Shown: in pieces, positions 4,542 through 29,669 of the stretch
Layout: every line of letters starts with the position of its first letter
Position numbering within the stretch: the stretch's first letter is position 1
Source: an uncultured Granulosicoccaceae bacterium
GTDB lineage: Bacteria; Pseudomonadota; Gammaproteobacteria; Granulosicoccales; Granulosicoccaceae
Assembly (NCBI GenBank): GCA_937922945.1
Contig: CAKZUP010000065.1
Location: 1 to 64,000 of the forward strand
Reading direction: 5' to 3'
DNA: 64,000 bases
The notes under the pieces: generated by a model
The model's database searches: none
The model's input: only the letters and a program-made list of their open reading frames with translations
What the model was told of the DNA's origin: nothing
Made by a program: the position numbers and the translations under genes

Positions 4542-6122
4542 ATGACAATATTTCCCAAATCCGCAGTTGTTGGCTTGGCGACTTGTATCAGTCTTATACT
4601 GAGTGCGCCAGCCGCGCTTGCATCTTCTCACGCTGAAGCGCCTTTTATTAAAACTCGGCCTGCATTGGATGCGTCCGATTTCTACCTGTTCTCTAGCTAT
4701 GAACCAGGACGTGAGAACTACGTCAGTCTTATTGCCAACTACCAACCCTTGCAAGACGGCTACGGTGGGCCAAATTATTTCCCGCTAAATCCTGAAGCGC
4801 TCTATGAAATACATATCGACAACGACGGTGACGCAATTGAAGATATTACATTCCTCTTCAATTTTGACAATGGTTTGGGCAATAGTGATCAGGGATTCGC
4901 ACTTCAAATAGGCGAAAACTCCGTGCCGGTTCCGTTAAAAAATATTGGTCAACTCGGAAATAGAGATAATCAGGGTGTATTAAACGTAAACGAGACGTAT
5001 CGCGTTGGTGTCGTGAAAGGAGAAAGACGATCTGAATCTCCTGTATGGGGTATACGGCCTGATTCTGGTATAAGACGATTTTCTAAGCCTTATGATAACG
5101 TTGGCGCTAAAACGTTTCCGGGTGGATACGACAATTACGTAAAAAGCCTGAGTAACAGCGGCGAGATTTACTACGATGTAAAGTTCGATCAATGCCCGGA
5201 AGGTGCGCAGCATGGAAGGGTGTTTGTGGGGCAGCGGAAAGATAGTTTTTCAGTTGCATTAGCAGAAATATTCGATCTAGTTAACTTTGTGCCACTTGCC
5301 AACGCTTTACCAGATAGCCAAGATCGCAACGATTTAGCAGATAAGAACGTGACCACATTAGCGTTGGAAGTCCACAAGGACTGCTTGGTTGGCGAGGGGA
5401 ATGGTGTTATCGGCGCTTGGACAACGTCAAGCGTTCGAAACACACAAACAATTAGCACAGACCCCAGCTACCGTTTTCCTATCGAGTACGCTGGCGAGTA
5501 CACGCAAGTATCTCGATTAAGCAACCCGTTGGTTAATGAAGTCGTCATAGGTTTGCCTGATAAAAATAAGTTCAACGTGAGCGAGCCTGTCAACGATGCT
5601 CAATTCGCAAACTACGTAGTCACACCAACACTGCCGGCCATTCTCGATATATTGTTTCGTGATGCTGTTGGAGCAACTGAGAATATCGCACCATCAAATC
5701 TACCAAGATTGGATTTAGTTGCTGCTTTTCTAACTGGTTTTCCTGGGGTTAACCAAATGGCGACGGTAACCGCATCTGAGATGCTTCGATTGAACACCGG
5801 TATACCGGCAACGGCCAAAGATGAGCAATCCAATCTTGGGGTAGCCGCTGGTGATTTGGCAGGTTTCCCAAATGGACGTCGACCGGGTGATGATGTTACC
5901 GACCTTGCTCTACGTGTCGTTATGGGGGCTTTATGTCATCCTATAGCAGTCGATCTGAATAGTAACGGTGAAGCAGGCGATGCAGGGGATAACCTAGGGA
6001 TTTGTTCTCCCGAAGATGCACCCGTTGGCAATGCACCATTTACAGATGGCGCACCGCAAAACGCCGATCAGTTCAACAATGCGTTTCCTTACTTAACTAC
6101 ACCTGTAAGCTTTTCTAAGTAA
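4542..6122 (+). CDS. DUF4331 family exported protein (full length)
   Basis: Secreted or periplasmic protein of 526 aa of the DUF4331 family, function unknown. The signal peptide ends near ALA-SSHAEAP, and the mature start SSHAEAP...DASDFYLF is the hallmark N-terminus of the family. The middle carries the conserved YTQVSRLSNPLVNEVVI...PDKNKFN segment, and the end carries NGRRPGDDVTDLALR...NNAFPYL. SD AAGGA lies 5 nt before the ATG. It is probably the first gene of a small plus-strand set (lipoprotein, ECF sigma, anti-sigma). The same domain recurs as a split gene pair at 17.6-18.8 kb, which aligns with its N- and C-terminal halves. Confidence 0.9.
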   Translation: MTIFPKSAVVGLATCISLILSAPAALASSHAEAPFIKTRPALDASDFYLFSSYEPGRENYVSLIANYQPLQDGYGGPNYFPLNPEALYEIHIDNDGDAIEDITFLFNFDNGLGNSDQGFALQIGENSVPVPLKNIGQLGNRDNQGVLNVNETYRVGVVKGERRSESPVWGIRPDSGIRRFSKPYDNVGAKTFPGGYDNYVKSLSNSGEIYYDVKFDQCPEGAQHGRVFVGQRKDSFSVALAEIFDLVNFVPLANALPDSQDRNDLADKNVTTLALEVHKDCLVGEGNGVIGAWTTSSVRNTQTISTDPSYRFPIEYAGEYTQVSRLSNPLVNEVVIGLPDKNKFNVSEPVNDAQFANYVVTPTLPAILDILFRDAVGATENIAPSNLPRLDLVAAFLTGFPGVNQMATVTASEMLRLNTGIPATAKDEQSNLGVAAGDLAGFPNGRRPGDDVTDLALRVVMGALCHPIAVDLNSNGEAGDAGDNLGICSPEDAPVGNAPFTDGAPQNADQFNNAFPYLTTPVSFSK

Positions 6123-7871: not shown

Positions 7872-8628
7872 TAAAGAATGGTGGATTGAGCAGGCAGGGG
7901 AGTATGTACTTGGCACGTTAAACTATGCAGACTGGATAACTTTTCAGAAAACGATTGAGCACGATAAAGAGGCACGGCGACTGGTAGTTGAATGGGAACG
8001 TACCTTTCAGCCATTGGCCGATTCTTTAGCGCCTATGGAGCCTGGCAAGCATGTATGGGACGCCATCGACTCAAGATTATTCGATGATAAGTCTCATAGC
8101 GCGTCAGTTACACCATTGCACGGGCAAAAATCTTCAGAACAATCATTGCAAAGAAAAATTGATCGATGGCGTGGCTTTGCTGGTTTGGCAACTGCTGCGA
8201 GTTTGCTGCTTGCGTCACTTGCATGGGTAAACCATCTAAATGTTAGAGATCAAATACCAGCAAGACCAGAAATTTCAGTAACACAGTTTGACGCAATATC
8301 TATTGTTCGAGATGCCGACTCTTCACCTTTATGGGTGGTTGATGCAGCATTTGATAAGCAATTTATTCGTGTTACGGCTATTGCACCTCCAGCAATTGAC
8401 GATGATAAATCTTACGAACTGTGGATTGTGAAACCAAATGATGCCGGCGTACAATCCATGGGGCTTATTCCTCACGAGATCGATCAAAGCTATCTGCTCA
8501 ATGTGTCTGATGTGGAGGAAACACCTATTGCTTTTGCAGTCAGTTTGGAGCCTAAAGGCGGGTCTGCCGAAGATGTGCCTTCTGGTCCCGTACTTTACCA
8601 GGGCGCGTATCAAATCTTAAAACCCTAG
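7858..8628 (+). CDS. Anti-sigma factor, RskA type
   Basis: 256-aa single-pass membrane protein. The cytoplasmic N-terminal part (about 1-100; EYVLGTLNYADWITFQK...EWERTFQPLADSL) matches zinc-less anti-sigma domains of the RskA group. One membrane helix follows (about 102-123; FAGLATAASLLLASLAWV), then a periplasmic RskA domain (SPLWVVDAAFDKQFIRVTAI...SYELWIVKPN). SD AAAGGAG lies inside the sigma gene. It presumably sequesters the upstream ECF sigma factor at the membrane and releases it on proteolysis or a conformational signal. No dedicated protease is visible nearby. Confidence 0.9.
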   Translation: MNTPDKEWWIEQAGEYVLGTLNYADWITFQKTIEHDKEARRLVVEWERTFQPLADSLAPMEPGKHVWDAIDSRLFDDKSHSASVTPLHGQKSSEQSLQRKIDRWRGFAGLATAASLLLASLAWVNHLNVRDQIPARPEISVTQFDAISIVRDADSSPLWVVDAAFDKQFIRVTAIAPPAIDDDKSYELWIVKPNDAGVQSMGLIPHEIDQSYLLNVSDVEETPIAFAVSLEPKGGSAEDVPSGPVLYQGAYQILKP

Positions 8629-8715: not shown

Positions 8716-9915
8716 CTAAAAAAAAGCCCGTTGAACAAACCAGTAAAGGCCTACTAATCCAATAAGGCCAGAAGCGGGCCTTGTAATGAGTTTTTTATAG
8801 TAAGACTTCCTGCTGAACCAAAAACCTACGGTGAATAGGCAGATGGCGACTACTGTCAGCTGCCCTAGTTCTACACCAAGATTAAATCCCACTAGGGCGA
8901 TCAGAAAATTAGTGCTGTCATGGCCAACATCGTCTAATACGCTGGCAAAACCCAGCCCGTGTAGTAGACCAAAAACAAACACAATAGCGATACGCCACTT
9001 ACCTAAGCGACTAAAGAACAGGTTTTCGATGCAAATAACGACTATCGATAACGCGATTAAAGGTTCAACAACGGATGGAGATATTCTGAGTACCCCTGTT
9101 GCGCCCAAGGCCAACGTAATACTGTGGGCCAGCGTGAATACGGTTGCCTGCACAGCCAAAGATTGCCATTTTGTGGTTAACAGAAACAGGCCCACAATAA
9201 ACAAAATGTGGTCCAAACCCTTTGGAAGTATGTGTTCGAATCCAATCACGATATAGTTAGCCAAGTTATGCCATCGTGATTGTTTCGTTGGTTTAGTAAA
9301 CTGAATAAGATCCGTTTGTTGGCCCGGTGATAGCAGTATGGCGAAGTCCAAGGGGCCGGTTTCATTATTAGCTCGAACAATAACTTCACCGAATGCATCA
9401 CTCCACTGCCATCTCAACGCAGACGTACCGGGCTTCAATTCAGCATAAAGTTTGATGCGGGAATCTCGCGGTACATCGGTGTTGCCCACTGACGGAATAT
9501 CGATTGATTCAAACTTAAGTTCAACATTGTTTCCATTTGAGTCAGTTATTTGTATTGCTGAAACAAAGCGCTCGCGAAACAGCTCGAATTCTGAGCGCAA
9601 GCGATTTTCATCCAGTGATCTGAGCTGTTTATATACCCCCGCATTCTGCGACAAATCGGTGTTGTCATGCTCAGGTTCTATACCTGCAATTAGACTCTCC
9701 AAATTGACCAGAGCGTCAATACCAAGACCCTTGTCTTGCAACTCGGTCTGCGAAATGGAGTAAGTTAATTCCACGATTGCTGGTCGCAGTTCGTGCGCTT
9801 GTGTCGCGCTGGGTAGTGCTATCATCCAAAGGAAGAATAAGACGCAATAGGCCAACCGAAGAGTCAATCTGGACCGGGTGGTGAGTTTGGCGCGGTGGTG
9901 TTCTTTACCTAACAT
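8716..9915 (-). CDS. HupE/UreJ-family membrane protein
   Basis: 399-aa polytopic membrane protein with a HupE/UreJ-type C-terminal domain. A signal peptide ends at TQA-HELRPA, a periplasmic domain covers about 43-225, then six or seven membrane helices follow. The helices carry the family's histidine motifs: GFEHILPKGLDHILFI, TLAHSITL and LLHGLGFASVL. HupE and UreJ proteins are linked to nickel or cobalt handling in characterised cases, but the longer signal-peptide-bearing class found here is uncharacterised. The gene starts directly after the stop of the DUF4198 gene, implying one operon. No hydrogenase or urease genes are present in the window, so the metal is unknown. Confidence 0.82.
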   Translation of the reverse strand: MLGKEHHRAKLTTRSRLTLRLAYCVLFFLWMIALPSATQAHELRPAIVELTYSISQTELQDKGLGIDALVNLESLIAGIEPEHDNTDLSQNAGVYKQLRSLDENRLRSEFELFRERFVSAIQITDSNGNNVELKFESIDIPSVGNTDVPRDSRIKLYAELKPGTSALRWQWSDAFGEVIVRANNETGPLDFAILLSPGQQTDLIQFTKPTKQSRWHNLANYIVIGFEHILPKGLDHILFIVGLFLLTTKWQSLAVQATVFTLAHSITLALGATGVLRISPSVVEPLIALSIVVICIENLFFSRLGKWRIAIVFVFGLLHGLGFASVLDDVGHDSTNFLIALVGFNLGVELGQLTVVAICLFTVGFWFSRKSYYKKLITRPASGLIGLVGLYWFVQRAFF

Positions 9916-10743
9916 CTAACGCTCGAACGTAAACGATGCCCAGTAGCTTTGCCAGTGAGCTTCAGCACTCTCTGGCTCCACAACATGTACAGCGTTTAGC
10001 ATGTAGTCACCTTCGCCTAGTAGCTTGAAGCTAGCAATGCCCATGGGGTCGGTTAGAGTAGTTAGTCGAATGGATTGTGTCCCTTTCCAAAAAAACTCAA
10101 CCTGGCGTCCTTCTAGCGGTTTACCCTCGTACAACAACTTAGCGCTTATACTGCCCGCCGCACGAAACGGGTCCTCTAAAAGCACCAATTCAAACGTTGC
10201 CTTGGACGGCGCAAGAACAGAACCCGCTTCGGTTGCTTTTATTGGTGATGGTGCTTCTGCCTCAAGAACCACCTGTATCAATGTCTTTGCGGATCGCGTA
10301 TAGCTCTCCTCAATGCCTTGTTTCGGCAGTTTTCGAGCAGAATGACGATCAGCAACGTTCACTAAGCCGTGATAATCCAGAAAATCAGTAAAATCTTTCC
10401 AATCGTTATAGGTCAGATATTTCGGATTCGTGTCCACGCTAATAGCGTGGAGGCCAGCGGTATTGAAAGCGATGTTAATGGCAGGATAATCACCCAGTCG
10501 TCCATCATATTGCTCTGTTCCATGCGTGTTTGCAACTGAGATAGATTGATACTGGCTGCCATCGTAGGGGAACGATGCCCCTGAAAAGCGCTCCCCATTT
10601 CTAATGTCTACAATCGCTGATTCACCCAGCGTTATCGAAGAATCAATCGGGTCCAGCCAGTATTCATGAGCGTCCAGCGAAGAGGTAGCGAAAACCAGGG
10701 TTGTTACCAAAGCCCATCGAGTTTTGGTCATGCTTGAAATCAT
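9916..10743 (-). CDS. DUF4198 periplasmic protein
   Basis: 275-aa exported protein; the signal peptide ends at SLDA-HEYWLDP, so the mature protein begins with the His-Glu-Tyr-Trp typical of DUF4198, a family near NikM-type nickel-uptake components. Two beta-sandwich-like parts are suggested: an N-terminal substrate-like domain and a C-terminal Ig-like part (GKPLEGRQVEFFWKG...TDPMGIASFKLLGEGDYML). The ATG at 10743 has AGGA 5 nt upstream. It is directly followed by the HupE/UreJ-like gene; together they look like a two-gene metal-related envelope unit, which is inference from family relations only. Confidence 0.8.
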   Translation of the reverse strand: MISSMTKTRWALVTTLVFATSSLDAHEYWLDPIDSSITLGESAIVDIRNGERFSGASFPYDGSQYQSISVANTHGTEQYDGRLGDYPAINIAFNTAGLHAISVDTNPKYLTYNDWKDFTDFLDYHGLVNVADRHSARKLPKQGIEESYTRSAKTLIQVVLEAEAPSPIKATEAGSVLAPSKATFELVLLEDPFRAAGSISAKLLYEGKPLEGRQVEFFWKGTQSIRLTTLTDPMGIASFKLLGEGDYMLNAVHVVEPESAEAHWQSYWASFTFER

Positions 10744-15391: not shown

Positions 15392-16573
15392 ATGTCATCA
15401 GCTGGAAAAAAGCCACTCATGCAGGGTTATCTGTTTTGCTGCGTCGCGGCAATCCTTGTACTGCTCAGTGCCAGCACGCACGCAGTCACGTTTTCAACCA
15501 AGCAAGATATCCGGATGCTTATCGACCAGAAAATGCGCATTGACGGCATCCCTGGTGTGTCATTTGCGGTTGTGCAGCATGGCCAGCTTGCCTGGGCTGA
15601 TGCCATAGGTCTTGCCAATGTAGAACACGCAACAGAGGCACATGTTGGCACCGTTTATCGTTCGGCCTCCATAGTTAAGCCACTCACGGCCACAGCGATA
15701 CTACAACTCCACCAGGCAAACAAGCTCGATCTTGATGCACCGGTTTGGCAATACTGCGCTGAATTTCCAGAAAAGCCTGAAGTGGTAACGGTTCGACAGC
15801 TTCTTACTCACACAGGCGGGGTGCGTTCTTACGCTATGCCTTGGTCAAGATATGAGGCCGAGCTATACAGTGCTAAACGGTATGAGAGCGTGACCGAGGC
15901 GTTGTCGATATTCGCCGGCGATTTGTTATTGCATGAGCCGGGCAGCACTTACAAGTACACATCTTATGGCTATAACGTTTTAGGCTGCATTATCGAATCG
16001 ATTACCGGGACTACTTACGAGAATCACCTTGAACAGTACATATTGAAACCTTCCACAATGACTTCGACATTGGCCGAGAGAACCGAGGACATTGTTCGTG
16101 ATCGCGCAGGCTTGTATAAACGAAATTCAAAAGGTCGTTTGGTCAATGAGAAAACGGTTGACCTGACAAATAAAATACCCAGCGGCGGCATGCTCACCAC
16201 AGCAACCGACTTGGCTCGGTTTGCAGCTTCGTATATGAGCGGTAGCTTGTTGTCAGATGAACTAATGGGGCAGGCCATAAAACCGGTAACCTTGTCCGAC
16301 GGCAGTCTCAGTTACTACGGCATGGGGTGGGATACCAATAGCGTGAAGCCAGAGAACAGGGCGCGTGAGATGTACCACGTTGGCGTCACACCTGGCGTTA
16401 CCGGCGTACTGTATTTGTATCCTGACGCCAAAGGTGCGGTGATCATTTTTGCCAATTTGTACAATGTGGGCGGTTTGGAAAAGCTGGCTCAGTCAATTGG
16501 AGCAACGGTTGGTTTCGACTCAACCGATGCAACCACTAATGCGCAGCTGCAAAACGCGGGTGGGACTCACTGA
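15392..16573 (+). CDS. Serine hydrolase, beta-lactamase class C family
   Basis: 393-aa exported hydrolase (signal peptide ends STHA-VTF). Catalytic motif 1 is S-x-x-K in YRSASIVKPLTA, motif 2 is the tyrosine in YTSYGYNVLG, and motif 3 is HVGVTPG, as in class C/DD-peptidase-like esterases. The natural substrate is unknown: peptidoglycan peptides, esters or D-amino acid peptides are all possible. Its 3' end overlaps the convergent TPR gene by 38 bp. Confidence 0.9.
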   Translation: MSSAGKKPLMQGYLFCCVAAILVLLSASTHAVTFSTKQDIRMLIDQKMRIDGIPGVSFAVVQHGQLAWADAIGLANVEHATEAHVGTVYRSASIVKPLTATAILQLHQANKLDLDAPVWQYCAEFPEKPEVVTVRQLLTHTGGVRSYAMPWSRYEAELYSAKRYESVTEALSIFAGDLLLHEPGSTYKYTSYGYNVLGCIIESITGTTYENHLEQYILKPSTMTSTLAERTEDIVRDRAGLYKRNSKGRLVNEKTVDLTNKIPSGGMLTTATDLARFAASYMSGSLLSDELMGQAIKPVTLSDGSLSYYGMGWDTNSVKPENRAREMYHVGVTPGVTGVLYLYPDAKGAVIIFANLYNVGGLEKLAQSIGATVGFDSTDATTNAQLQNAGGTH

Positions 16574-17585
16574 TTTGCGATAGTCGTGCGTTCGCTCGGT
16601 CTCGCAGTTGCGCAATCTCCGATTGGTTCTCTTCAGCGCCATTGGTTTCCAGTACGTCGGCTAGAGCGAGCATCATTTGCGGGTTATCCACGCGATCATT
16701 AATATCGCGATATCGACGCTCAGCCAGAGTCGTTCGCCCGGATAAAGCATCTACCTCAGCCAAATGTTCTTCAATCAGCCAATAGCCCGGAAACAGTCTA
16801 TCGGCCAAGGAGAATGCATCATATGCATCGTCGAGCTGACGCTGTTCAAGTGCTAAAATGCCATGCTGTAGGGCTAACCAAGCCTGAATATACTCAGAAT
16901 GACCAACAGTTCGCTGTTCAGCGCGCGTTAGCCATTGTGCAGCAAGGTTGTAGTCGCCGGCTTTTGCATAGGCATGTGCAACCCGCGCCGCATTTTCGAA
17001 CGATGGATTGCGACTGTTCAACGCCATTAAATGGACCAAAGCATTTTCCGTATCACCTGATTGCAATAACGCCTCACCGGTCAACTCCGCAACAAGCGTA
17101 GCGCTGTCCTTATCGATGAGCAGGTGTGATTTCATCTGTTGCAAGTCGCTGAGTGCCGCTTCTGTTCGATGTAGCGCAAGATGTATCTGCGCGCGAGACA
17201 GAAGAGGCCCTGAAGCCACTTCGCTCTTGGTAAATGCCAATGCTATGGTGTTGTCAGCACGTCGATAGTCTTCGAATTCACCCGTTAGTCGAGCTCGATC
17301 AAGGTGTGCCAAAGCAAGCCTTTCCAGATTGGGCCAGGAATTCGGAGTTTTCGCTACCAGTGCTTCTAACGACCGAATGGATTTGTTAACCCTTGCCAGT
17401 TCATGATCGAACTGTTTTCCGGATGCAGATAAATGCGATGCATTCTCGTTGAGTGCAAGCTCGCTTTTCGAGCCAACACCTGCTGCGTTCAGGCTTTTCT
17501 GACTGCCAGCGAAAAACACCATCGCGCAAACCGTAACCGCAATCAGCATCCCTGCTGTTGCGGATTTTTCTCGAAGCAGTTGCAT
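16536..17585 (-). CDS. TPR-repeat protein, exported or membrane-anchored
   Basis: 349-aa protein with an N-terminal hydrophobic segment (about 10-28) and tetratricopeptide-like helix pairs through about 55-325, for example WPNLERLALAHLDRARLTGE, ENAARVAHAYAKAGDYNLAAQWLTRAEQ and WLIEEHLAEVDALSGRTTLAERRYRDI. It starts 5 nt after the stop of the lipoprotein half of the split DUF4331 pair and is probably cotranscribed with it. TPR proteins scaffold other proteins; by position its partners would be the DUF4331 and CHRD proteins. Confidence 0.82.
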   Translation of the reverse strand: MQLLREKSATAGMLIAVTVCAMVFFAGSQKSLNAAGVGSKSELALNENASHLSASGKQFDHELARVNKSIRSLEALVAKTPNSWPNLERLALAHLDRARLTGEFEDYRRADNTIALAFTKSEVASGPLLSRAQIHLALHRTEAALSDLQQMKSHLLIDKDSATLVAELTGEALLQSGDTENALVHLMALNSRNPSFENAARVAHAYAKAGDYNLAAQWLTRAEQRTVGHSEYIQAWLALQHGILALEQRQLDDAYDAFSLADRLFPGYWLIEEHLAEVDALSGRTTLAERRYRDINDRVDNPQMMLALADVLETNGAEENQSEIAQLRDRANARLSQISESHPRFAAAH

Positions 17586-17590
17586 CGGTT

Positions 17591-18208
17591 CTAGTGAGGC
17601 GTAGCCAAAAATGGGAACGCGCCGTCGAACGATTTATCGTTTTCGGATGGATTCAATACGCCAACCAGCGCACCCGGAGCATGCGGTGCGGAGTCGCCTG
17701 TCAGTTCGAGCAGGGCAACAGCCAGAGTTACATCAATCACTGGATCGGTAAGCTGCCTGCCGTTTGGAAACCCACTGGCCTCTAACGTATTCAATTTCAA
17801 CGTATCTGGCAAGATCAACGGTACCGCAAACTCTGCGCATGTACCTGTGCCATCGCCGACGACCGTGCACGGCGTTAACCCAAGTCCCATCAGTTGCTCA
17901 TCCAGCGCACCGTGTAGGGTGGTTAGACTGGTGATGATTTCCGGTACAAACGTACCAGCAGAATCATCGGTAGGGTTCGCGTCGTTGTAATCATCTTTAC
18001 TGCTGATCAGCGCGGTCGCGATCGCTGGCATACCCATTCGATCAACGCGGGTATAGGCGGACACGTCGGTGGTATCAAAATTGAACGTGGCTACGCTGGG
18101 TACATCACCATTACCATCACTATCACTGTCATCGTCGCTACTGCACGCCGATAACATAAAAGCAGAGATCGCCACGATGCTTAAAGACTTAACTATTAAT
18201 GTTTTCAT
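17591..18208 (-). CDS. DUF4331 C-terminal-half lipoprotein
   Basis: 205-aa lipoprotein (lipobox LSAC, cysteine near residue 22, followed by an Asp/Ser-rich linker). The segment YTRVDRMGMPAIATALISSKDDYND corresponds to YTQVSRLSNPLVNEVVI...PDKNKFN of the full-length DUF4331 protein at 4542-6122. The end NGRQLTDPVIDVTLAVALL...DGAFPFLATPH likewise matches the full-length C-terminus. It is therefore the second half of a DUF4331 fold, separately exported and lipid-anchored. It begins 9 nt after the gene for the first half. Confidence 0.8.
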   Translation of the reverse strand: MKTLIVKSLSIVAISAFMLSACSSDDDSDSDGNGDVPSVATFNFDTTDVSAYTRVDRMGMPAIATALISSKDDYNDANPTDDSAGTFVPEIITSLTTLHGALDEQLMGLGLTPCTVVGDGTGTCAEFAVPLILPDTLKLNTLEASGFPNGRQLTDPVIDVTLAVALLELTGDSAPHAPGALVGVLNPSENDKSFDGAFPFLATPH

Positions 18209-18217
18209 GGTGTCTCC

Positions 18218-18832
18218 TTAAAGTGATGCCGTTGTGGCCCAGGTTTGTATCGAACCGCCACCGTTTTTGACGGTATCAATGGGTAGTTGGATTACTATGG
18301 CCGTGATGTTCAAACCCGCAACATCATCTCTAGTGGGGTCGAAAGAGAGTGTTCCAGTAGTAACGGTATTGACGAACCCGGTTTGATCGAAGAAAAATGG
18401 GTCATCTGCGAGTCCTGACCAGGCACTCAATTGATCGTTAGTCAGAATGGTCTCAACCGCACCCTGAATAAGCGTACTGTCTTGTGAATCTGACACACGC
18501 ATACCCCAATCGCCATCGTCATTTTGGGCAAACCGAACATAAAGCTCGAAATCGGATATACCATCCGCGACTTCGCTAGTATCGAAATGAAGTGTATAGA
18601 GAATAGTGGAGTCGTAATTGGCCGCCATACCAGGCGCACTGAACGTACCGAAAGTTAACGCAAGATTAAGCTCGTTAGTTTCATGCCACGCATAATAATC
18701 GCCGATGTCAGCTGCCAATTGCGCGGTAGCGCGAGGCGCTTCCTGATGATCGGCCGCCTGTGTATTTGCAGGGAGCAATGCCAGTAGAGTAACAGCTGCA
18801 AGCAGATGTCGTGAGTAGTGTCGTATTCGCAT
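18218..18832 (-). CDS. DUF4331 N-terminal-half exported protein
   Basis: 204-aa protein with a Sec signal peptide ending NTQA-ADHQEAP. The mature start ADHQEAPRATAQLAADIGDYYAW and the DSTILYTLHFDT...GISDFELYVRF segment match the first half of DUF4331 proteins. The open frame stops cleanly, and the next gene supplies the second half with its own signal, so this is a genuine split or dedicated two-subunit arrangement, not a single frameshift. Function unknown. Confidence 0.8.
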   Translation of the reverse strand: MRIRHYSRHLLAAVTLLALLPANTQAADHQEAPRATAQLAADIGDYYAWHETNELNLALTFGTFSAPGMAANYDSTILYTLHFDTSEVADGISDFELYVRFAQNDDGDWGMRVSDSQDSTLIQGAVETILTNDQLSAWSGLADDPFFFDQTGFVNTVTTGTLSFDPTRDDVAGLNITAIVIQLPIDTVKNGGGSIQTWATTASL

Positions 18833-18885: not shown

Positions 18886-19707
18886 TCAGAAGGTTGTCGC
18901 ATCGATCGCGGTTGAACGTTCTGAAGGCTGATTGTCGTCGTCGATCGCCACAACTTCATAGCTATAAGTAGTTCCACTCGATAAGCTGTCATCGAAATAA
19001 CTATTGCCTTGAACGTTGGCGATAAGAAGGTTGTCACGGTAAACTTCGTACATCAGCACCTGACCATCATCGGTGGAGCGGTCCCAGAACAATTCAAGAG
19101 CGGAACGAGAATAGACACTGGCTGACAGATTCATCGGTGCGCTTGGCTCGCCTGCCGCTGCTGCTGTATCGTGAGTGTGCTCGTGATCATCGTTCATAAG
19201 CGTATTTGACAAGTTCGCTCGTATCGCACCAGCTGGAAACTCAGGATTGTGGATATTGATGTAGAAGTCGCTAGGGTTATTCAAGATTCGCTGCACGATT
19301 CCCACTTCTTCGGTCGGGAATTTGCCGGTCTCGCCTTCAGTCAAACAATCGGCCGCATTGCCATCCTCAGGACCTGCCAGCACGGCAACAACGGGACCGT
19401 TGGCATCTCGTTGCCCCTCATGTATGTGCGCCATCATTCCTTCACCCACTGGGACAAGCTGAATATTATTGACGATCAAGGAGTAGCAAAGTGTTGTCTC
19501 ATCGCCGTCAACGCCAAAAACATAGCCGATGCCTTTACCGTTCGGGTCTCCAACCAGGCGCTTTGTCGGATCATCACCAACTTCCTCTCGACCATCCATT
19601 TCAGCGATTAGCAGCGCATTTGTGTGCCCAGCATGAAGCTCTGCGGATAGCGTCAAGCAAACAGCAGCAGCGACACAGGCAAGGGTTACTTTGTGTTTTA
19701 TTGTCAT
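18886..19707 (-). CDS. CHRD domain plus fibronectin type III protein
   Basis: 273-aa exported protein. The signal peptide ends LHA-GHTNALL. A CHRD domain (about 30-168) shows AHIHEGQRDANGPVVAVL and FYINIHNPEFPAGAIRANL. A His/Asp-rich linker (NDDHEHTHD, about 172-180) could bind metal. An FN3-like domain follows (about 188-273; SAPMNLSASVYSRSALELFWDRS...YEVYRDN). CHRD occurs in bacterial secreted proteins of unknown function. It is first in a probable minus-strand unit with the split DUF4331 pair and the TPR gene. Confidence 0.85.
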   Translation of the reverse strand: MTIKHKVTLACVAAAVCLTLSAELHAGHTNALLIAEMDGREEVGDDPTKRLVGDPNGKGIGYVFGVDGDETTLCYSLIVNNIQLVPVGEGMMAHIHEGQRDANGPVVAVLAGPEDGNAADCLTEGETGKFPTEEVGIVQRILNNPSDFYINIHNPEFPAGAIRANLSNTLMNDDHEHTHDTAAAAGEPSAPMNLSASVYSRSALELFWDRSTDDGQVLMYEVYRDNLLIANVQGNSYFDDSLSSGTTYSYEVVAIDDDNQPSERSTAIDATTF

Positions 19708-20169: not shown

Positions 20170-20604
20170 ATGATCAAACTAATAAGCATTCCTTCTACGC
20201 TACTACGTACACTGTGCATATTCACCGTTGTGAGCCTGTTCGCTTTTTCATCCAATTTGCTTGCAACACAGAACGCATCGGGCAGCTGGGTAGACAAGAA
20301 GTACTCGATAAACGGCAACTGGGAAGTCATGCAACGTGAAGATGGCAACTGGATAATCAAATTCGATGAAAACTTCAAGACCAAGTCAGGTCCTGATTTA
20401 AAAGTGTTTTTGTCTCCCCAATCCATTGACGAGGTTACAGGAAAAACAGCGACGCAAGGTGCCGTATTGCTAGCTAAGCTAACTAACAATAAAGGCGCAC
20501 AGGAATATGTTTTGCCATCCAATATTGATATTAACGACTTTAAATCACTACTGATACATTGTGAGGCGTACAGCGTGCTGTGGGGGGGTGCTAATTTTTC
20601 GTAA
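20170..20604 (+). CDS. DM13-domain exported protein
   Basis: 144-aa protein with a signal peptide (ends LLA-TQNASG) followed by one DM13 domain (about 38-142): NGNWEVMQREDGNWIIKFDENFKTKSGPDLKVFLSP, and near the end CEAYSVLWGGANF with the single conserved cysteine. DM13 has been proposed to be an electron-transfer domain because of its company with redox domains; this is not proven for such stand-alone proteins. Its stop codon overlaps the end of convergent crtB by 14 bp, so it abuts the photosynthesis cluster. Confidence 0.85.
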   Translation: MIKLISIPSTLLRTLCIFTVVSLFAFSSNLLATQNASGSWVDKKYSINGNWEVMQREDGNWIIKFDENFKTKSGPDLKVFLSPQSIDEVTGKTATQGAVLLAKLTNNKGAQEYVLPSNIDINDFKSLLIHCEAYSVLWGGANFS

Positions 20605-21637
20605 CGTCAGTTCTTCGATCCAGCGATTGGAACAATGCGAATAGCCACTCAATTCGGTCAAATTTGGCTCCAGATTTTATATCGTTCAATAAAAATCGAG
20701 TTTCCCGTAATGGGGGCCACGAAAGTAATTCTTTATTCGTCGATGATAGTCTCATCGGTATACTAACCGGTGCCCATACCAATAAAGATAGTTTTCGCCA
20801 CAGAGGCACAGTAGCCCTATTGTCAATTGACTGAAAATTTTTCTTTTCTAATTCATGACCTATATCAGCGTATATAAGCCTGGCAGCGCGTATACCCGGT
20901 CGGCATGATAACGGTAGAATCGCTATGCCTGCGTCGGCTCGGCTATACAGTGTGTCGGCGTAGTCAAGCAATCGTTTGCACATGTGGCCGATGCGTTCGT
21001 CGTCTTTTGGGTTCGCCAACCATGCATCTGCGTCAATGTCATATTCATTGAACCACTGCCTTGGCAGGTAAAGTCTGCCCATACGTGCATCTTCGCCTAT
21101 GTCCCTTGCAATGTTGGTGAGTTGCATAGCCACACCAAGATCACACGCTCGTGCAACAGCGTGTTTATCGTTGGTACCCATTATCAAGGCCATCATCGAA
21201 CCCACACAGCCAGCCACGCGAGCAGCATACTGGTACAAATCTGATAACGTGTTATATTCCCGCGGACGTACGTCCCAAGAAAGTCCCTCGATTAATGCAT
21301 CGGGCATCGATCGCGGGATATCATATTGCAACACAACTTCAGACATGGCCCGGTCTTCTGGAAATGCCAAAGGTTTGCCGGCGTAAATTGCATCCAGTCG
21401 AGTGGATAATGCTTGTATGGCTTCGTCGCCCAGGTGTTCGTCGTCTATCAGATCGTCGGCGATTCTGCAAAATGCATACAAAGCCGTTGCAGGTATCGCA
21501 ACCCGTCCAGGTAAAGCCAATGATGCAAGAAAGAACGAATGTGAACCGTGTCGAATTAGTTTCTTGCACGCAGCTAAATCTGCCTTAGTAGTTTTGCTGC
21601 GCGATTGGAGCATAGCCTGACTAATAGTTTGACTCAT
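20591..21637 (-). CDS. crtB: 15-cis-phytoene synthase
   Basis: 348-aa head-to-head prenyl synthase condensing two geranylgeranyl diphosphates to phytoene, the first committed carotenoid step. Both Asp-rich Mg-diphosphate sites are present: ADDLIDD (60-66) and NIARDIGEDARMGRLYLP (about 175-192). The start ATG overlaps the bchO stop (ATGA). It is the last gene of bchI-bchD-bchO-crtB, away from the other crt genes. Confidence 0.95.
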   Translation of the reverse strand: MSQTISQAMLQSRSKTTKADLAACKKLIRHGSHSFFLASLALPGRVAIPATALYAFCRIADDLIDDEHLGDEAIQALSTRLDAIYAGKPLAFPEDRAMSEVVLQYDIPRSMPDALIEGLSWDVRPREYNTLSDLYQYAARVAGCVGSMMALIMGTNDKHAVARACDLGVAMQLTNIARDIGEDARMGRLYLPRQWFNEYDIDADAWLANPKDDERIGHMCKRLLDYADTLYSRADAGIAILPLSCRPGIRAARLIYADIGHELEKKNFQSIDNRATVPLWRKLSLLVWAPVSIPMRLSSTNKELLSWPPLRETRFLLNDIKSGAKFDRIEWLFALFQSLDRRTDVTKN

Positions 21638-22521
21638 ACATCTCCTTTTAAAATTAATTCAGCGATAATCTCGGGTGCTTCTTCGTGTGCCAAATGTCCG
21701 AGATTGGGCAGCATTGTCAGCTCACTGTTTGGAAATAGCCGATTTAGTCGGTATGCGTCTCTGGCAGGAATCATGGCATCGTTGGCGCCGGCAATAAGTT
21801 GTACCGGTACGTGTATTGTTGAGAGCATCTGAAACAGCGGTTCCAAGCGCCAGCTAGCCATCATTTGCAAGGCACCGCTAACGTGGTCGGTATTTTTGCA
21901 CAACGCGCGGTATTGATTTGTAGACTCTTGACTGATGTTCGAGCCCGTGTTTTTAAGGAGTTTGTCAACCGCTTTGGGGTCGCGCAATCTACTACCGAAT
22001 AGATCGGTCAAAAAAGGTAAGTTTGCGCTAATTTTTGCGATAGGTGAGAAAACCAAACCAGGTAGGCCACCCAGCGGAACCAGTGCGCCGTTGATTGACA
22101 CGAGGCGCTGATAACTATCCGGCTTATCAATAAGCATTTGAGCGCCTATCGCAGCACCGGCTGAATGGCCGATGATGCTGTGCGTGTTGAGTTTCATGTG
22201 CTGCAGCAGACCGGTCACAGCACTCGCGATACCACGCAAAGATAAGTCTGGCCTGTTTTCACACGATGTGTTGGCATGGCCGGGTAAGTCCAGTGCAACG
22301 ACGGTAAAGCGTTCGGCCAGCGGTTGCATTAAATCATGCCATGAATGCGACGATGAACCGGTTCCATGTAAGAGTACGCAGGCTATCGGTGCGTTACCCA
22401 TGCTGGTCACATTCCATGAATAGCTTCCAGCTACGATATTGCGCGTGTAAAACTCTCGTGGATCTGCGTCACGTCTGGCATGATCGGTTATATCATTTAC
22501 CGTCATAGCTTCTGAGCTCAT
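21634..22521 (-). CDS. bchO: Magnesium chelatase-associated alpha/beta hydrolase
   Basis: 295-aa alpha/beta hydrolase. The nucleophile elbow GHSAGAAIG places Ser120; the oxyanion region LLHGTGSSSHSWHDLM and the late HLAHEEAPE histidine complete the triad pattern. BchO is routinely encoded with bchD/bchI and is thought to assist Mg chelation into protoporphyrin IX, but its reaction is not established. The ATG overlaps the bchD stop by 4 nt. Confidence 0.93.
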   Translation of the reverse strand: MSSEAMTVNDITDHARRDADPREFYTRNIVAGSYSWNVTSMGNAPIACVLLHGTGSSSHSWHDLMQPLAERFTVVALDLPGHANTSCENRPDLSLRGIASAVTGLLQHMKLNTHSIIGHSAGAAIGAQMLIDKPDSYQRLVSINGALVPLGGLPGLVFSPIAKISANLPFLTDLFGSRLRDPKAVDKLLKNTGSNISQESTNQYRALCKNTDHVSGALQMMASWRLEPLFQMLSTIHVPVQLIAGANDAMIPARDAYRLNRLFPNSELTMLPNLGHLAHEEAPEIIAELILKGDV

Positions 22522-24392
22522 TGCGCATACCTCGAAATGATATTCGATAGGTTATGCGCGTTGCTACGTGGCAGCGCCAAATAGTGTGCACCCATACTGG
22601 CGGCTAGCTTTTGCGCCTGAGCACTCTGGCGACTTGCGGTATCGACAAACAGCAAACGTGCTTTCGTGGTCCTGAGTAACTGTGATTGATGTTCAGCGTC
22701 TTTTGCTGCCAATTCACGAGATGCCGTACCGTTTAATGCAATATTGGCCTTTGCGTCTGTCATCAATACGCCAATGGGTGCTTGACCATCGTGTGTCAGA
22801 GAGCAGAGCAGGCTATACGCTAGCTTTAATCCAGACGCCAAAGGCGTGCCTCCGCCGCCTGGTAAATTTTGTAATGCCCGTTTGGCGCGTGTTAGAGATC
22901 TGGTGGGAGGTAGATCCAATGTAGCTTGTGTTCCGCGAAAAGTAATCAAAGCCACTCTATCTCGACGCACATAACATTCAGCCAGCAATAATTCCACTGC
23001 ACCCTTGGCTTCTGCGAGTCTATGCATTGCAGACGACCCGGAAGCGTCGACTATAAATACGGTGGTGGTTCGAGATGACTGTCGATACTTTGTTACGCGT
23101 AAATCACTTTTATGCAGCTGAATTGCAGGCAATCTACCAGCAGCGACTTTCTTTTTTTCGGAGCGCCTTAAACGCTGCATGGGTATAGCCACCTTTAAGG
23201 TTTCTATAACGTTTATTCTCTGACCGTTCAAGCCTCCTTTCGGCCGCAATATACCAATAGGTCGACCATGTCCGGTTATTGCTGTCGTTTGCTTGTCACG
23301 ACCAACTTCTGTACGTTGTGCTTGTGTTGAAGTCAGGCTTGCGAGCAAATGTTGAGGCAATGTAGCTTGAGCGGCTTGAATTAGTTGTTCTTGCATGCCT
23401 GCTTCAGGAATTTGTTCTGACTGGTTCTCGTTCGGCTCTTGTGGGTTAGAGTCAATTTGCTGATCATCAGTAGTACTTGAGTCTGTATCCTGCGGAACCG
23501 TTTGTTCTTGCGCTTGCTCGGGCGATTCTTCGGGTATATTTTCTTCTGCAGAATTCATAGCATGAGCAGCCAATGCCAACTGCACAGCAAGCAATGCATC
23601 CTGTTCAATTGCAGCATCTCGGTTATTCAGTGCTGCCAATGTGCGTGCGACTCGGCAAGTCTGTATCAGCGGTAACATGGAGCTGATACCGAGTTTTAGT
23701 GCCACACAGGTCAGTTCTTTAAGTATTTTATCCGTCAGAATTACACTTGAGGGCTTTATTGATAGTTCCGGCTTGGCGTTGAAATGAAACAGCTTATTCG
23801 CATTGTCTAAAAGATCATTAGTGTTGGCAAATAAATCCAACACGGTAATGTCTGGTATCGCAATATGTAGAGCAAGACGTTCAGCCAGACCTGACGCGTG
23901 TATACCGGGTTCTTGCGCAAGGCTATCGTCAAAAGCAATAATCACTTTCGGCACCGATTTCCTTGTACCGTTGGTATCATTGTTTGTACTGCTCGTATTT
24001 TCTTTAATACCTTTCGCATCCAATGATGCACAAAGTTCAGCATTTATGTAGGCGGGCAGGCGTTGCACAGACGATATAATCAAGCCAGAATGTTCAGATC
24101 GCTGTAACAGGCCGATGTGCTTGACCAAGCGCCCTTCAGCCAGGCTCGACGTGGAGTCTAGCCCACCGTGCAAGTCAGCAAACCCAACGTTGTGAGGTAG
24201 TTGCAAAGGATGAAAGAGCTTGCATAACGATTTTTTCAAGGCATCTCGTAGCGGGCTTTGCTGACCGTAAATAACAATGCCATGTAATTCTGTGGGGTTG
24301 GCGCTTAGCAATTCAAGTGCCGTTTCTATAAGCGCAATACTTGCGTGTTTTGTGCTTGCGGTCGCAAGCGTAGCGCTGTTGTCTAAGCGCAT
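22518..24392 (-). CDS. bchD: Magnesium chelatase subunit D
   Basis: 624 aa from the ATG at 24392; a GTG at 24407 in the same frame is an alternative. BchD forms the AAA+ double-ring platform with BchI that drives Mg2+ insertion by BchH. An AAA-like N-terminal region without a canonical P-loop leads to an acidic Pro/Gln/Glu-rich linker (about 285-340) and a von Willebrand A domain with a MIDAS motif (VDASGSSAMHRL near residue 447; DAKANIA further on). It overlaps bchI by 10 nt (25 with the GTG). Confidence 0.95.
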   Translation of the reverse strand: MRLDNSATLATASTKHASIALIETALELLSANPTELHGIVIYGQQSPLRDALKKSLCKLFHPLQLPHNVGFADLHGGLDSTSSLAEGRLVKHIGLLQRSEHSGLIISSVQRLPAYINAELCASLDAKGIKENTSSTNNDTNGTRKSVPKVIIAFDDSLAQEPGIHASGLAERLALHIAIPDITVLDLFANTNDLLDNANKLFHFNAKPELSIKPSSVILTDKILKELTCVALKLGISSMLPLIQTCRVARTLAALNNRDAAIEQDALLAVQLALAAHAMNSAEENIPEESPEQAQEQTVPQDTDSSTTDDQQIDSNPQEPNENQSEQIPEAGMQEQLIQAAQATLPQHLLASLTSTQAQRTEVGRDKQTTAITGHGRPIGILRPKGGLNGQRINVIETLKVAIPMQRLRRSEKKKVAAGRLPAIQLHKSDLRVTKYRQSSRTTTVFIVDASGSSAMHRLAEAKGAVELLLAECYVRRDRVALITFRGTQATLDLPPTRSLTRAKRALQNLPGGGGTPLASGLKLAYSLLCSLTHDGQAPIGVLMTDAKANIALNGTASRELAAKDAEHQSQLLRTTKARLLFVDTASRQSAQAQKLAASMGAHYLALPRSNAHNLSNIISRYAQ

Positions 24393-25417
24393 GCGGCCAG
24401 GCCGCACGAGTCTAACGCTCGTTTTACACGAGTAAGAGAGCCACTTTCATCGAGGGGGTCGCGACGCAAGCGATGCGCCAATGCGAGTGGGGCAACTCTG
24501 GCAATGTGCTCTCGATTGACACTCTTACTGCCTTCAAACGCCGCATAAGCTCGGCAAGCGCGTATAAGAGTTAGTTCCCCACGCAAGCCGTCTGTACCGA
24601 GTTCAACACACAGTGTCGACATAATACGCAGGGTGTCATCGTCAACTTTGATGCTGCCAAGCGTATTTCGAGCGTTGACAATTTTGTCTCTGATGGCCTT
24701 ATCTTTCAACAGATATTGCTTTTGAAATTTCTCTGGATGACATTCGAATTCGTCGCGTAGCCTAACAATAGCCATGCGTTCTTCTATTACAGTTGGCGTT
24801 GAAACAGTGACTGATAGTCCAAAGCGGTCCAGTAGCTGTGGCCTCAATTCGCCTTCCTCTGGGTTGCCGCTGCCGACAAGAATAAATCGAGAGGCGTGTT
24901 TTATGCTTAATCCATCTCGCTCAATAACATTAACTCCGGATACGGCAACATCGAGCAATACGTCAACCAAGTGATCTTCTAAAAGGTTAACTTCATCGAT
25001 GTACAGGAAGCCACGATTAGCCGCCGCTAAAAGCCCAGGCTCGAAAGCTTTCACACCTTGAGACAATGCCTTTTCAATATCTAATGCACCAACTACCCGA
25101 TCCTCTGTAGCGCCAAGTGGCAGATCGATTACTGGTGTTGGTTTAATAGCATCGGTAAGAGTACCGTTGTTGACTCGCTCTACGCATTGGTCACAAAGTT
25201 GTTCGTGATTATCTGGATTGCAGGCGTATTGGCAATGCTCCACGGTCTTAATAGGTGGTAGCAGGGCAGCAAGCGCTCGCATCGCTGTTGTTTTACCAGT
25301 ACCACGGTCGCCGAAAACAAGAACACCGTTGATGGACGGATCGATGGCGGCCATTTGCAAAGCCATTTTCATGTCTTGTTGCCCTACAATGGCAGAAAAT
25401 GGAAAAACGGCACTCAA
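24383..25417 (-). CDS. bchI: Magnesium chelatase ATPase subunit I
   Basis: 344-aa AAA+ ATPase. Walker A is GDRGTGKTT (36-44), Walker B FLYIDEVNLL (137-146), and sensor/arginine motifs follow (GSGNPEEGELRPQLLDRFG). The N-terminus FPFSAIVGQQDMKMAL is typical. The start is a TTG: no in-frame ATG precedes the conserved core, and GGAG lies 7 nt upstream of the TTG. It is first in bchI-bchD-bchO-crtB, separated by 98 bp from puhE, so it may have its own promoter or be reached by read-through from the puh operon. Confidence 0.95.
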   Translation of the reverse strand: MSAVFPFSAIVGQQDMKMALQMAAIDPSINGVLVFGDRGTGKTTAMRALAALLPPIKTVEHCQYACNPDNHEQLCDQCVERVNNGTLTDAIKPTPVIDLPLGATEDRVVGALDIEKALSQGVKAFEPGLLAAANRGFLYIDEVNLLEDHLVDVLLDVAVSGVNVIERDGLSIKHASRFILVGSGNPEEGELRPQLLDRFGLSVTVSTPTVIEERMAIVRLRDEFECHPEKFQKQYLLKDKAIRDKIVNARNTLGSIKVDDDTLRIMSTLCVELGTDGLRGELTLIRACRAYAAFEGSKSVNREHIARVAPLALAHRLRRDPLDESGSLTRVKRALDSCGLAACA

Positions 25418-25515
25418 ACCAGCTCTCCAGATTTGAACTGCTGTGCACTGTACTGATGTTGTACGATCATTTTATTTTGTATTTCAGTCTGTTTACTTGG
25501 ATTATTTGTTCGCAT

Positions 25516-26271
25516 TTACAATTTCGAATTAAACACACGGTTCCACATTTTCAACTCCTGAAACGGTACCAACATAAACAGGTGTTCCACAATCGCTAAG
25601 ATGAGCAGTACCGCTGGCACTGCATAAATCATTGGATGAGTAGCACTCACATGCACCGACATGGAAAGAAGTTGATAGACCATCAGTGCAGCACATGCCA
25701 CAGATATAAAAAAGAACGGCGTTAGAGTACCGGTTTTGATATAACTGGAGATATACGACAGCCGATCTGGAATCCACGAAGTACTGAAATTCGGTACACC
25801 CAAAAACAAATTCAATTTAGCGCTCCAGCGCATAAGCCACAAGACAAGATAGGTGTACAAGCCTGCGCTGTTATTAGAGTCAAACTGCGTAAACACCAGA
25901 TACAGGCCTATACCCAACACAAGCAGTTCGTGCCAGATGCTTGCGCCTAATGCCATGTTGAATTTATCCCAACCTAAAGTTTTAGGAGGGCATGGATTTT
26001 TATGCCTTCCAGAAATTAGCCCCAGATAATAGCTAAGTTCAACACAGCCCCATAAGACAACAGCACTGAAAAACGAAAGGAAAATGTTCAGCTCGTTTGC
26101 CTGATTGCTGGTTAACTGAAGCGTAAATAGGCTGATACACGCACAACCTGCGATGCCAAACTTTGTAATAATCGCGTTCGGATTAAGGCCTTGTTGCAGC
26201 CTGAGTACAACACCCGTTCCAAGCCACCACACGAGGATGACTATGAATACAGTTGTAGGGTAGCTGCTCAA
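25516..26271 (-). CDS. puhE: Photosynthetic complex assembly protein PuhE
   Basis: 251-aa polytopic membrane protein with about seven hydrophobic segments. It is recognised by position after acsF and by the pattern VWWLGTGVVL near the N-terminus, GRHKNPCPPKTLGWDKFNMALGASIWHELLVL, and RWSAKLNLFLGVPNFSTSW. PuhE modulates reaction-centre and bacteriochlorophyll levels in Rhodobacter. The start is TTG, 9 nt past the acsF stop in the same frame, and no ATG or GTG is available nearby. Confidence 0.9.
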   Translation of the reverse strand: MSSYPTTVFIVILVWWLGTGVVLRLQQGLNPNAIITKFGIAGCACISLFTLQLTSNQANELNIFLSFFSAVVLWGCVELSYYLGLISGRHKNPCPPKTLGWDKFNMALGASIWHELLVLGIGLYLVFTQFDSNNSAGLYTYLVLWLMRWSAKLNLFLGVPNFSTSWIPDRLSYISSYIKTGTLTPFFFISVACAALMVYQLLSMSVHVSATHPMIYAVPAVLLILAIVEHLFMLVPFQELKMWNRVFNSKL

Positions 26272-26280
26272 AGTAATGAA

Positions 26281-27330
26281 CTACCAAGCCGGGGTCAGGC
26301 GAACTTTCGCCGGTATATGGTTTTGCACAGCTGGGATACAGTACAGTCTGGTGAATATAAAGCCTGAAGCTGCCAAATGGCGTCCTCGGCTTAACAAGCC
26401 AATAACACCACCACGTGCTTTTGCTTTAACTATGCCGTTGGCATGACTGTTCAATGATTCCAATAACGGTAAGAACTTTGGATGCTCAATGGGTAGTGTA
26501 AATGGATACACTTGTTTTGTAATTTCCGAACAAATGGTAAACACCCGCATGTCGTAATCTGTTGGATCTATGCCGAGTGCTTTGTGAAATTCCGGCCTTG
26601 CGTGGTCACGAACAAACATGGTTGCGTACACTGCCAATAAAAAGAATTTGATCCAATACTTGTTACCGCCTTGCAGTAACTTCGGGTTTGCACGCATAAT
26701 CAATGCAAAAGCATCGCCGTGACGAAATTCATCATTACACCAGTTTTCGAACCAATTGAAAATCGGGTGAAACATGCGATCGGGATGTTGTTGCAAGTGA
26801 CGATAGATAGTAATGTACCGAGCGTATCCAATTTTTTCAGAAAGATAGGTTGCGTAGAAGATAAATTTCGGTTTAAAGAATGTATATTTTTTAGTTTTGG
26901 TTAGAAAACCAAGATCAACGCCAATGCCATAGTCTTTAAGTGTTTCGTTAATAAAACCCGCATGTCTGGCCTCATCACGAGTCATCAGACTAAACAGCTC
27001 TTTGACATCCGGATTGTTTATACGTTTCTTGATTTCTGAATATAAAATTGCACCCGAGAATTCAGCTGTTAGTGAACTTACCAGAAAGTCGACAAATTCT
27101 TGTCTTAGACCTTCGGGCAGCTCAGAGAGTTTTTCTTGAAAATGCTCATCTCGACGAAAATGTTTTTTATTAACATCGGCTTGCATCTCTTTTATAAGCG
27201 CATCCCATTCCTCACGAACAGGCTCAATATTGAGCTTGTCCATTTCATCGAAATCGGTGGTGTAGAAACGCGGACTCAGTACTGTATCTTCAGCTGCGAT
27301 CTTATTCGTGTCATGTACTGCTGAACTCAT
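26281..27330 (-). CDS. acsF: Aerobic Mg-protoporphyrin IX monomethyl ester oxidative cyclase
   Basis: 349-aa diiron monooxygenase that forms the fifth ring of protochlorophyllide using O2. The ferritin-like four-helix iron ligands appear as [13 protein letters not shown]...DEARHAGFI and NEFRHGDAF-type segments ([15 protein letters not shown]). The ATG at 27330 was chosen: it has GGAG 7 nt upstream and overlaps the orf95 stop as ATGA, while the longer frame begins only with TTG. Its presence without a visible bchE implies bacteriochlorophyll synthesis under oxygen. Confidence 0.96.
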
Positions 27331-27614
27331 ATTTTTCTCCAATCAGAGAAACTGGTTTCAATTAGCTCTGTTAGTTCCAGTCGCGCAACAAGTCGAGTCC
27401 ATTTATCTTCCAGCCAGCCAGCGCGACGAACAGTGGCGCGCCTGCGTAGCGTGAGAATTTCACCAAATTCCGGCTTAACTTCATCACCATGAATAGTGAC
27501 CTCGTCTCCCGGGCGAATTTCAATACCGTCGTCAAGCGTGACGTGGGCGTGTAAGCTCGAAGCCGTATGTTCGATCTCAATGCTACAGTCGACCTCAAAA
27601 ACTCGATTTTTCAT
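27327..27614 (-). CDS. Conserved PGC protein between puhC and acsF
   Basis: 95-aa soluble, acidic protein, all-beta in appearance ([38 protein letters not shown]...). Small unnamed genes occupy this exact place in many purple bacterial clusters (puhC-orf-acsF). Translationally coupled on both sides by 4-nt overlaps, so it is probably needed stoichiometrically with PuhC or AcsF. An accessory role to the cyclase is a reasonable guess, not shown. Confidence 0.85.
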
Positions 27615-28069
27615 GAATTGTCTCTCGTGCCAGGAAGCAGCTGGGTGAATGCCATCACATTATCAGGGCCGAATGCAGAGAGTTCAATAGTTCTGTTAGT
27701 AACCGGATCGATGAGTGATACTAACCCAGTTTGCCAAACAGCAAGCTTGAAAGGAACCTCCGGCCCTTCGCCGGCTGCGCGCCGCTCCCGTGCAAGACCT
27801 CTGACCACACTTCGCATAAATCCCCCTTCACCAATGGTTAATCGGTGGATTTCGAGATTATTGCTCGCGTCCACCACGGCCACATCGCCATTGGGCTGGT
27901 CGATAAAGTACAAGGTTATTTGCTCTAATAAATCCCCACGATGGAGCGCAGTGTCGTTTGACGCTGATTCGGATTTGTTGGTCGTAGTGCTAGCCACCGC
28001 AATGGATGCCAAAACCATTACGACCAAGCCGGATTTAAACCAAAGCGGGAAGATAGGCGCAGGTGTCAT
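27611..28069 (-). CDS. puhC: Photosynthetic complex assembly protein PuhC
   Basis: 152-aa protein with one N-terminal membrane helix (about 10-27) and a periplasmic domain. Family pattern: GDVAVVDASNNLEIHRLTIGEGGFMRSVVRGLARERR and FKLAVWQTGLVSLIDPVTNRTIELSAFGPDN. PuhC is needed for optimal assembly of the RC-LH1 complex. The start overlaps puhB, and the stop overlaps orf95. Confidence 0.93.
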   Translation of the reverse strand: MTPAPIFPLWFKSGLVVMVLASIAVASTTTNKSESASNDTALHRGDLLEQITLYFIDQPNGDVAVVDASNNLEIHRLTIGEGGFMRSVVRGLARERRAAGEGPEVPFKLAVWQTGLVSLIDPVTNRTIELSAFGPDNVMAFTQLLPGTRDNS

Positions 28070-28770: not shown

Positions 28771-28830
28771 CGTCGTATTAGTCCCGTCGCAGCATGTCTG
28801 TCATTTGATTTTTTACGCCAGTCGCATTGG

Positions 28831-29655: not shown

Positions 29656-29669
29656 TAGTTAGTGCTCCA

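Follow-up and report, generated by a model that had tools for sequence, protein, structure and literature searches.

A two-gene DUF4331 locus

The stretch of DNA analysed here, 64,000 nucleotides long and referred to as the window, carries two adjacent minus-strand genes that each match part of the Pfam family DUF4331 (PF14224), and a single-chain member of the same family elsewhere on the plus strand. Both halves are intact open reading frames at the coordinates given in the initial annotation. The features are as follows.

4542..6122, plus strand: single-chain DUF4331 protein, 526 aa, predicted mature start SSH
16536..17585, minus strand: TPR protein, conserved partner, with weak matches to TPR models
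17591..18208, minus strand: C half of DUF4331, predicted lipoprotein, 205 aa, PF14224 match
17594..17818, minus strand: C-half segment B (PLILPDTLK ... GFPNGR ... FPFLATPH), residues 131-205
17837..17869, minus strand: C-half loop Cys114-Cys124, the cut site in permuted relatives
17867..18055, minus strand: C-half segment A (YTRVDRMGMPA ... LTPC), residues 52-114
18143..18154, minus strand: C-half lipobox Leu-Ser-Ala-Cys, with Cys22 followed by Ser-Ser (signal ends LSA, then CSSDDD)
18209..18219, minus strand: N/C junction, where the N-half TAA overlaps the Shine-Dalgarno sequence AAGGAG (18219-18214), with a 9-base gap to the C-half ATG
18218..18832, minus strand: N half of DUF4331, 204 aa, Sec signal, no lipobox, PF14224 match
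18746..18754, minus strand: predicted mature start of the N half, Ala-Asp-His (X-X-His; signal ends NTQA, then ADHQEAP)
18755..18832, minus strand: predicted N-half signal peptide, 26 aa, ending NTQA by the -3/-1 rule
18886..19707, minus strand: exported protein with CHRD and fn3 domains, first gene of the likely operon

Reading along the minus strand, the order is CHRD-fn3, N half, C half and TPR, with gaps of 53, 9 and 5 bases, the last being the distance from the C-half stop codon to the ATG of the TPR gene. The two halves share one reading frame with a single TAA between them; despite the shared frame, the C half has its own Shine-Dalgarno sequence, start codon and lipoprotein signal. Translation of the two halves is probably coupled. 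At the far end of this group, a beta-lactamase-family gene (15392-16573) converges on the TPR gene, the 3' ends overlapping by 38 bases. Upstream of the CHRD gene, window positions 20591-31100 hold photosynthesis-type genes (phytoene synthase, Mg-chelatase-like subunits, DUF3623 and others).

The halves are complementary parts of the DUF4331 profile

Both halves score above the PF14224 gathering score of 27 bits, the N half at 56.1 bits (E 5e-15) and the C half at 52.5 bits (E 6e-14). The N half matches profile positions 2-84 and 148-235 and the C half 247-421; since these are separate stretches, the halves are complementary, as the initial annotation had claimed, and the full profile is covered by the pair together and by neither half alone. 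The single chain at 4542-6122 spans positions 1-421 with 431 bits, so that one-chain and two-chain versions of one Pfam family do occur in the same window, again as had been proposed. By BLASTP, the halves match that single chain over short stretches at about 25-32% identity, with E-values of 0.003 and 4e-6; matches this weak make the halves remote relatives of the neighbouring protein, not pieces of it.

The two-gene form is widespread

With profiles grown from the window halves, we read 56 split DUF4331 loci, and the N and C genes are adjacent in all of them. The window's family contributes 11, counting the window itself; another 37 come from the phylum to which a Kofleriaceae genome belongs, a phylum that we take to be Myxococcota, and 8 come from a family, f64, that is probably alphaproteobacterial, judging from its relative Croceicoccus. 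Relatives titled Granulosicoccaceae or Granulosicoccus have the same gene pair. These 56 loci were opened on half-matches, and so show a wide spread, not a frequency; six had first been listed with an N match only, and a C partner was found in each on opening. The spacing between N and C genes is mostly -8 to +20 bases, with start codons chosen by script. Counts below use 56 N halves; L143, a single chain in the 57-row set, was left out.

Counted by genome, split pairs occur in 7 of the 59 family f64 genomes, with single chains in 2 of the 59. Of the 235 genomes sampled from the Kofleriaceae phylum (that of genome G503), 61 have a match of any kind and at least 35 have a split pair; of 385 genomes from the class of G184, 9 have a match and 1 has a split pair. 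The sample of the window's phylum has a DUF4331 match in 22 of 398 genomes, mostly long single chains. We conclude that the two-gene form is intact, old and widespread, and is the rule within its own branch. Among the loci at which a single half was seen, L188 has a C half with no N half found near it; L184, L190 and L191 end at contig ends; and the N open reading frame of L186 is short. A further layout, C-N-C, is seen at L093 (4868-7256), where one N half lies between two C halves of the permuted type described below.

One half is predicted to be free and the other lipid-anchored

Each half has its own export signal, which agrees with the initial annotation: a Sec signal on the N half and a lipobox on the C half. 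How often split forms carry a lipobox, a survey suggested in that annotation, can be answered for the set read here: every one of the 57 C halves has a lipobox (a loose script picked out 56, and L161 was recognised by eye; 34 fit a strict pattern), and a lipobox-like motif occurs in the signal of 4 of 56 N halves (L025, L026, L041 and L092), the window N half having none. A fifth N-half match, at L094, was not counted, as the open reading frame there is over-extended and the motif sits well ahead of the domain. Given that lipoboxes are so nearly exclusive to the C halves, a predicted arrangement of one free and one anchored half is the rule in this split set. In E. coli, a Ser at position +2 favours the outer membrane. 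The halves are likely to meet outside the cytoplasm, which the initial annotation had put as a necessity.

The window pair is on a separate branch from the neighbouring single chain

For phylogenetic analysis, the domain segments were joined in an identical order for every row. A 114-row tree groups the long single chains together (56 rows, SH-aLRT 99) and places the window pair in a clade made up of split rows only (38 rows, SH-aLRT 98). In a 76-row tree, from which long-branch rows were dropped and to which new alphaproteobacterial rows were added, the window pair is again in a clade of split rows only (39 rows, SH-aLRT 99), apart from the 18-row clade of long single chains to which 4542-6122 belongs (SH-aLRT 100); this tree excludes L142, L179, L180, L183, L122, L123 and most long single chains. 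L046, whose C half is cut by a contig end, was excluded from both trees. Because the clades are separate and supported, the window pair is not derived from the single chain at 4542-6122; it was not split off its neighbour and is a separate old branch. The initial annotation, which matched the two genes to the halves of that protein, was correct as to complementary parts and needs correction as to descent.

A second, divergent split clade (clade II; 13 rows, SH-aLRT 97, also counted as 15 rows) includes L040-L042 of the window's own family. In that family, L040, L041 and L042 are a second, divergent split pair, lying beside ferredoxin/cytochrome-type, HbpS-like or DUF4198 genes. Three compact single-chain DUF4331 proteins of about 400-434 aa, L056 (5550-6758), L219 and L220, are nested within clade II in the 76-row tree, and are possibly natural re-fusions.

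The existence of two separate split clades, and the nesting of these compact single chains within one of them, would fit a history in which two chains came first and the long single chains arose by fusion. We consider this quite possible, if somewhat doubtful; the tree is midpoint-rooted without an outside root and does not fix the direction of change between fission and fusion, the AU test does not reject a tree that keeps all split rows together, as expected had the split state arisen once (p 0.112), and another compact single chain, L218, falls among the long ones with a support of 80. This history is compatible with our preferred reading of the pair, a conserved two-chain unit, which is set out in the Discussion.

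The C half is circularly permuted in one lineage

A scan of segment order found A before B in 64 sequences, single chains included, and B before A in nine C halves, all from family f64, with E-values for A and B of about 1e-20 to 1e-31; three further sequences were without one of the segments. The C half from Croceicoccus marinus (Sphingomonadales) also has the order B-A. The window C half has the order A-B and is not permuted. Permuted C halves are located as follows.

L054 (5134-5898), L089 (2885-3592), L090, L091, L092, L093 (two copies), L094, L097 and L194 (6037-6783): permuted C halves in f64 genomes and on a Croceicoccus marinus plasmid

In the permuted C halves, the Pfam match runs through positions 362-421 before 246-316, the former ends are linked by 22-39 residues, and the lipid-anchor signal precedes B rather than A. 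The new ends fall between two conserved cysteines, a pair that is present in 9 of 9 permuted C halves and, within that clade, in 29 of 31 C halves with the ordinary order (one of the 31, L145, does not belong to a split pair). The two cysteines may form a disulfide; if they do, the cut made by the permutation opens a loop that was already stapled shut.

The permuted rows form a single clade of nine rows (support 100, 76-row tree), suggesting that the permutation most likely happened once. An assembly artefact is an unlikely cause, since the nine permuted C halves come from 8 loci in 7 genomes, some of the loci are on contigs of 3.0-3.2 Mb (G184, G481 and G492), and there are two Croceicoccus marinus plasmid records besides, in one of which the order was checked. 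The permutation of the C half in f64 and Croceicoccus is a new finding of this analysis. There is a precedent in TpMglB-2 (Tp0684), a tethered lipoprotein with a circularly permuted fold, for which anchoring has likewise been put forward as one potential cause (PMC4990184); the permuted C half resembles it in being a tethered, circularly permuted lipoprotein, and we claim no relation between them.

Neighbouring genes and the predicted mature start

The TPR gene lies directly downstream of the pair at 39 of the 56 split loci. With group labels taken from the tree, the main group (39 loci) accounts for 33 of these and the divergent group (17 loci) for 6; the TPR model used in the count was built from these same loci. 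CHRD was found in 3 of the 56 by the same neighbour search. Near the single-chain copy in the window are the following genes.

7206-7871, plus strand: ECF sigma factor, downstream of the single-chain copy
7858-8628, plus strand: RskA-type anti-sigma factor, downstream of the single-chain copy
8716-9915, minus strand: HupE/UreJ-2 protein, mature start His predicted by eye
9916-10743, minus strand: DUF4198 protein, mature start His predicted by eye

The HupE/UreJ-2 and DUF4198 genes (8716-10743) adjoin each other and have the ECF sigma, anti-sigma and single-chain DUF4331 genes as neighbours. ECF sigma factors were found in 10 of 56 split versus 10 of 20 single-chain loci, anti-sigma factors in 4 of 56 versus 10 of 20, HupE/UreJ-2 in 6 of 56 versus 12 of 20, and DUF4198 in 3 of 56 versus 5 of 20, the split-locus counts being low bounds because some of those loci are short. 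HupE and DUF4198 are missing from most split loci as read, some of them short, which weighs against a metal link. The Croceicoccus locus has N half, C half, TPR, HupE/UreJ, ECF sigma and anti-sigma genes in a row; on plasmid pCME4A9I of Croceicoccus marinus, as in the window, an adjacent pair annotated in RefSeq as 'DUF4331 family protein' is followed by a TPR-like protein, and there by HupE/UreJ, but unlike in the window the C half is permuted, with B before A. Judged by eye, the Croceicoccus HupE has a His start after a signal-peptidase-like site, as do the window HupE and DUF4198.

The ATCUN motif, an N-terminal site for Cu(II) or Ni(II), needs an unblocked N-terminus, His as the third residue and anything but Pro as the second. 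The window N half, with its predicted start Ala-Asp-His, would place His at position 3, the cleavage site being a prediction. Of the 56 split N halves, 51 have X-[DSG]-His at the predicted mature start, and 49 of these meet the -3/-1 rule there; L179, anchored on an earlier His, is scored as failing it. The His is missing from the start in 5 of 56 (L039, L171, L177, L182 and L183). For single chains (SSH), the X-X-His register fits 55 of 59, and a start at His-1 also fits 53 of 59; a few rows in this count were anchored on the wrong His, and the split set was recounted.

DUF4198 is reported to be a secreted, nickel-binding protein that begins with His, and the HupE/UreJ-2 proteins to have metal domains with His at the N-terminus (PMC12537917). 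The 'anglerase' metalloproteins of DUF4198 and HupE/UreJ-2 resemble DUF4331 in being exported and in having a conserved His at the processed N-terminus, and they also lie beside DUF4331 in the window and in relatives; the 'anglerase' His is residue 1, as opposed to predicted residue 3 in split DUF4331, and we claim no homology. Shared metal-linked neighbours, together with the X-X-His start, suggest that DUF4331 may handle nickel or copper at the envelope, a reading that we hold tentatively, as possible and short of likely.

Some neighbours point instead to a module serving haem or redox stress: an HbpS-like haem-binding gene lies beside L041, and L042 and L094 have genes from its cluster; the variant-B pairs are accompanied by ferredoxin and cytochrome b561-type genes; and RskA/SigK-type regulation adjoins the single chain. 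We regard this as unlikely, since HbpS-type neighbours are found at only 3 of 56 loci, whereas HupE/UreJ-2 and DUF4198 turn up repeatedly near split and single-chain forms alike.

Structure prediction

In an AlphaFold2 model of a read-through fusion of the two halves (pTM 0.50), the N half is predicted as a beta-sandwich with a core pLDDT of about 80-88, and most of the C half is below 50 pLDDT; residues 221-230 of the fusion (VATFNFDTTD) are the sole C-half block with a mean pLDDT of 80, no more than a hint that this block may dock on the N half. The C half modelled alone has a mean pLDDT of 38 and gave no usable model. Foldseek returned no structural match at E <= 0.001, the best VIA match (Z 7.2) was to antibody domains and is within the range of common arrangements, sequence searches of the PDB returned no solved relative, and a search of viral contigs for further relatives to use as modelling rows found none.

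Discussion

The best reading of these data is that a known, uncharacterised Pfam family has a two-chain form with one lipid-anchored half, and that the anchored half is permuted in one lineage. We consider it likely that the window pair is a conserved two-chain DUF4331 unit of this kind. The N half would be secreted by Sec and would probably fold as a beta-sandwich, and the C half would be a lipoprotein that tethers the pair, the Ser at +2 favouring the outer membrane. The halves would most likely pair 1:1 in the envelope, rebuilding a unit made elsewhere as one chain, and the pair and the TPR protein would most likely belong to an ECF-sigma-linked envelope module; that this module serves a transition metal, nickel or copper being the probable candidates, is the less certain part and short of likely. 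The sequences themselves show that the domains are complementary, that each half has its own signal, that the pair and its gene order are conserved and that some neighbour families are common to it and the single-chain form; physical pairing, lipidation, the choice of membrane and metal binding are what we infer from them. One-chain versions of the same domains do exist as natural fusions, the compact ones within split clade II included.

An alternative is that the halves match one Pfam model only because that model spans two domains joined in some lineages, and that they act in one pathway without forming a complex. The signals, which would put one half on the membrane and leave the other free, could be read in this way, as could the low confidence of the joint AlphaFold fold and the lack of a co-structure, but the two genes are strictly side by side in a set order, the short gap between them is similar from group to group, and fused versions have been long-lived, all of which makes this rather unlikely. 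It is extremely improbable that a single-chain gene was recently broken to give the pair, with the in-frame TAA as the lesion, a reading suggested by the shared frame and single stop codon but ruled out by the conserved two-gene clade: the two-gene form recurs in 56 loci, mostly out of frame, and both halves have complete, differing export signals and the C half its own Shine-Dalgarno sequence, which also upholds the initial view that this is no simple frameshift.

The conserved two-chain unit can be compared with the single-chain form, as at 4542-6122, which has the same two regions in the same order, export, an X-X-His start and an overlapping set of neighbours, and differs in being one chain of about 450-560 aa with inserts, in having no convincing lipobox and in forming a separate clade. 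A fuller joint reading, doubtful as a whole, would make DUF4331 an envelope metal-binding unit in three topologies: one chain, N-A-B; N plus lipid-A-B; and N plus lipid-B-A, permuted by a cut between two disulfide-forming cysteines. The metal site would be the free, processed X-X-His of the secreted half, held at the membrane by the anchored half beside HupE/UreJ-2 and DUF4198.

A literature search under DUF4331 and PF14224 found no paper. The three forms (one chain; two chains, one of them anchored; and two chains with the anchored one permuted) allow anchoring and assembly to be compared within one family, and the one-chain and two-chain forms can be compared even within one genome. With its shared neighbours and X-X-His start, this uncharacterised family becomes testable, nickel or copper binding being the first assay. 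The anchored halves also vary in another way: many C halves of the Kofleriaceae phylum have a long Cys/His-repeat region (for example CRIYH ... HCPHA) between the lipobox and the DUF4331 part, as at L150, L151, L155, L160 and L165.
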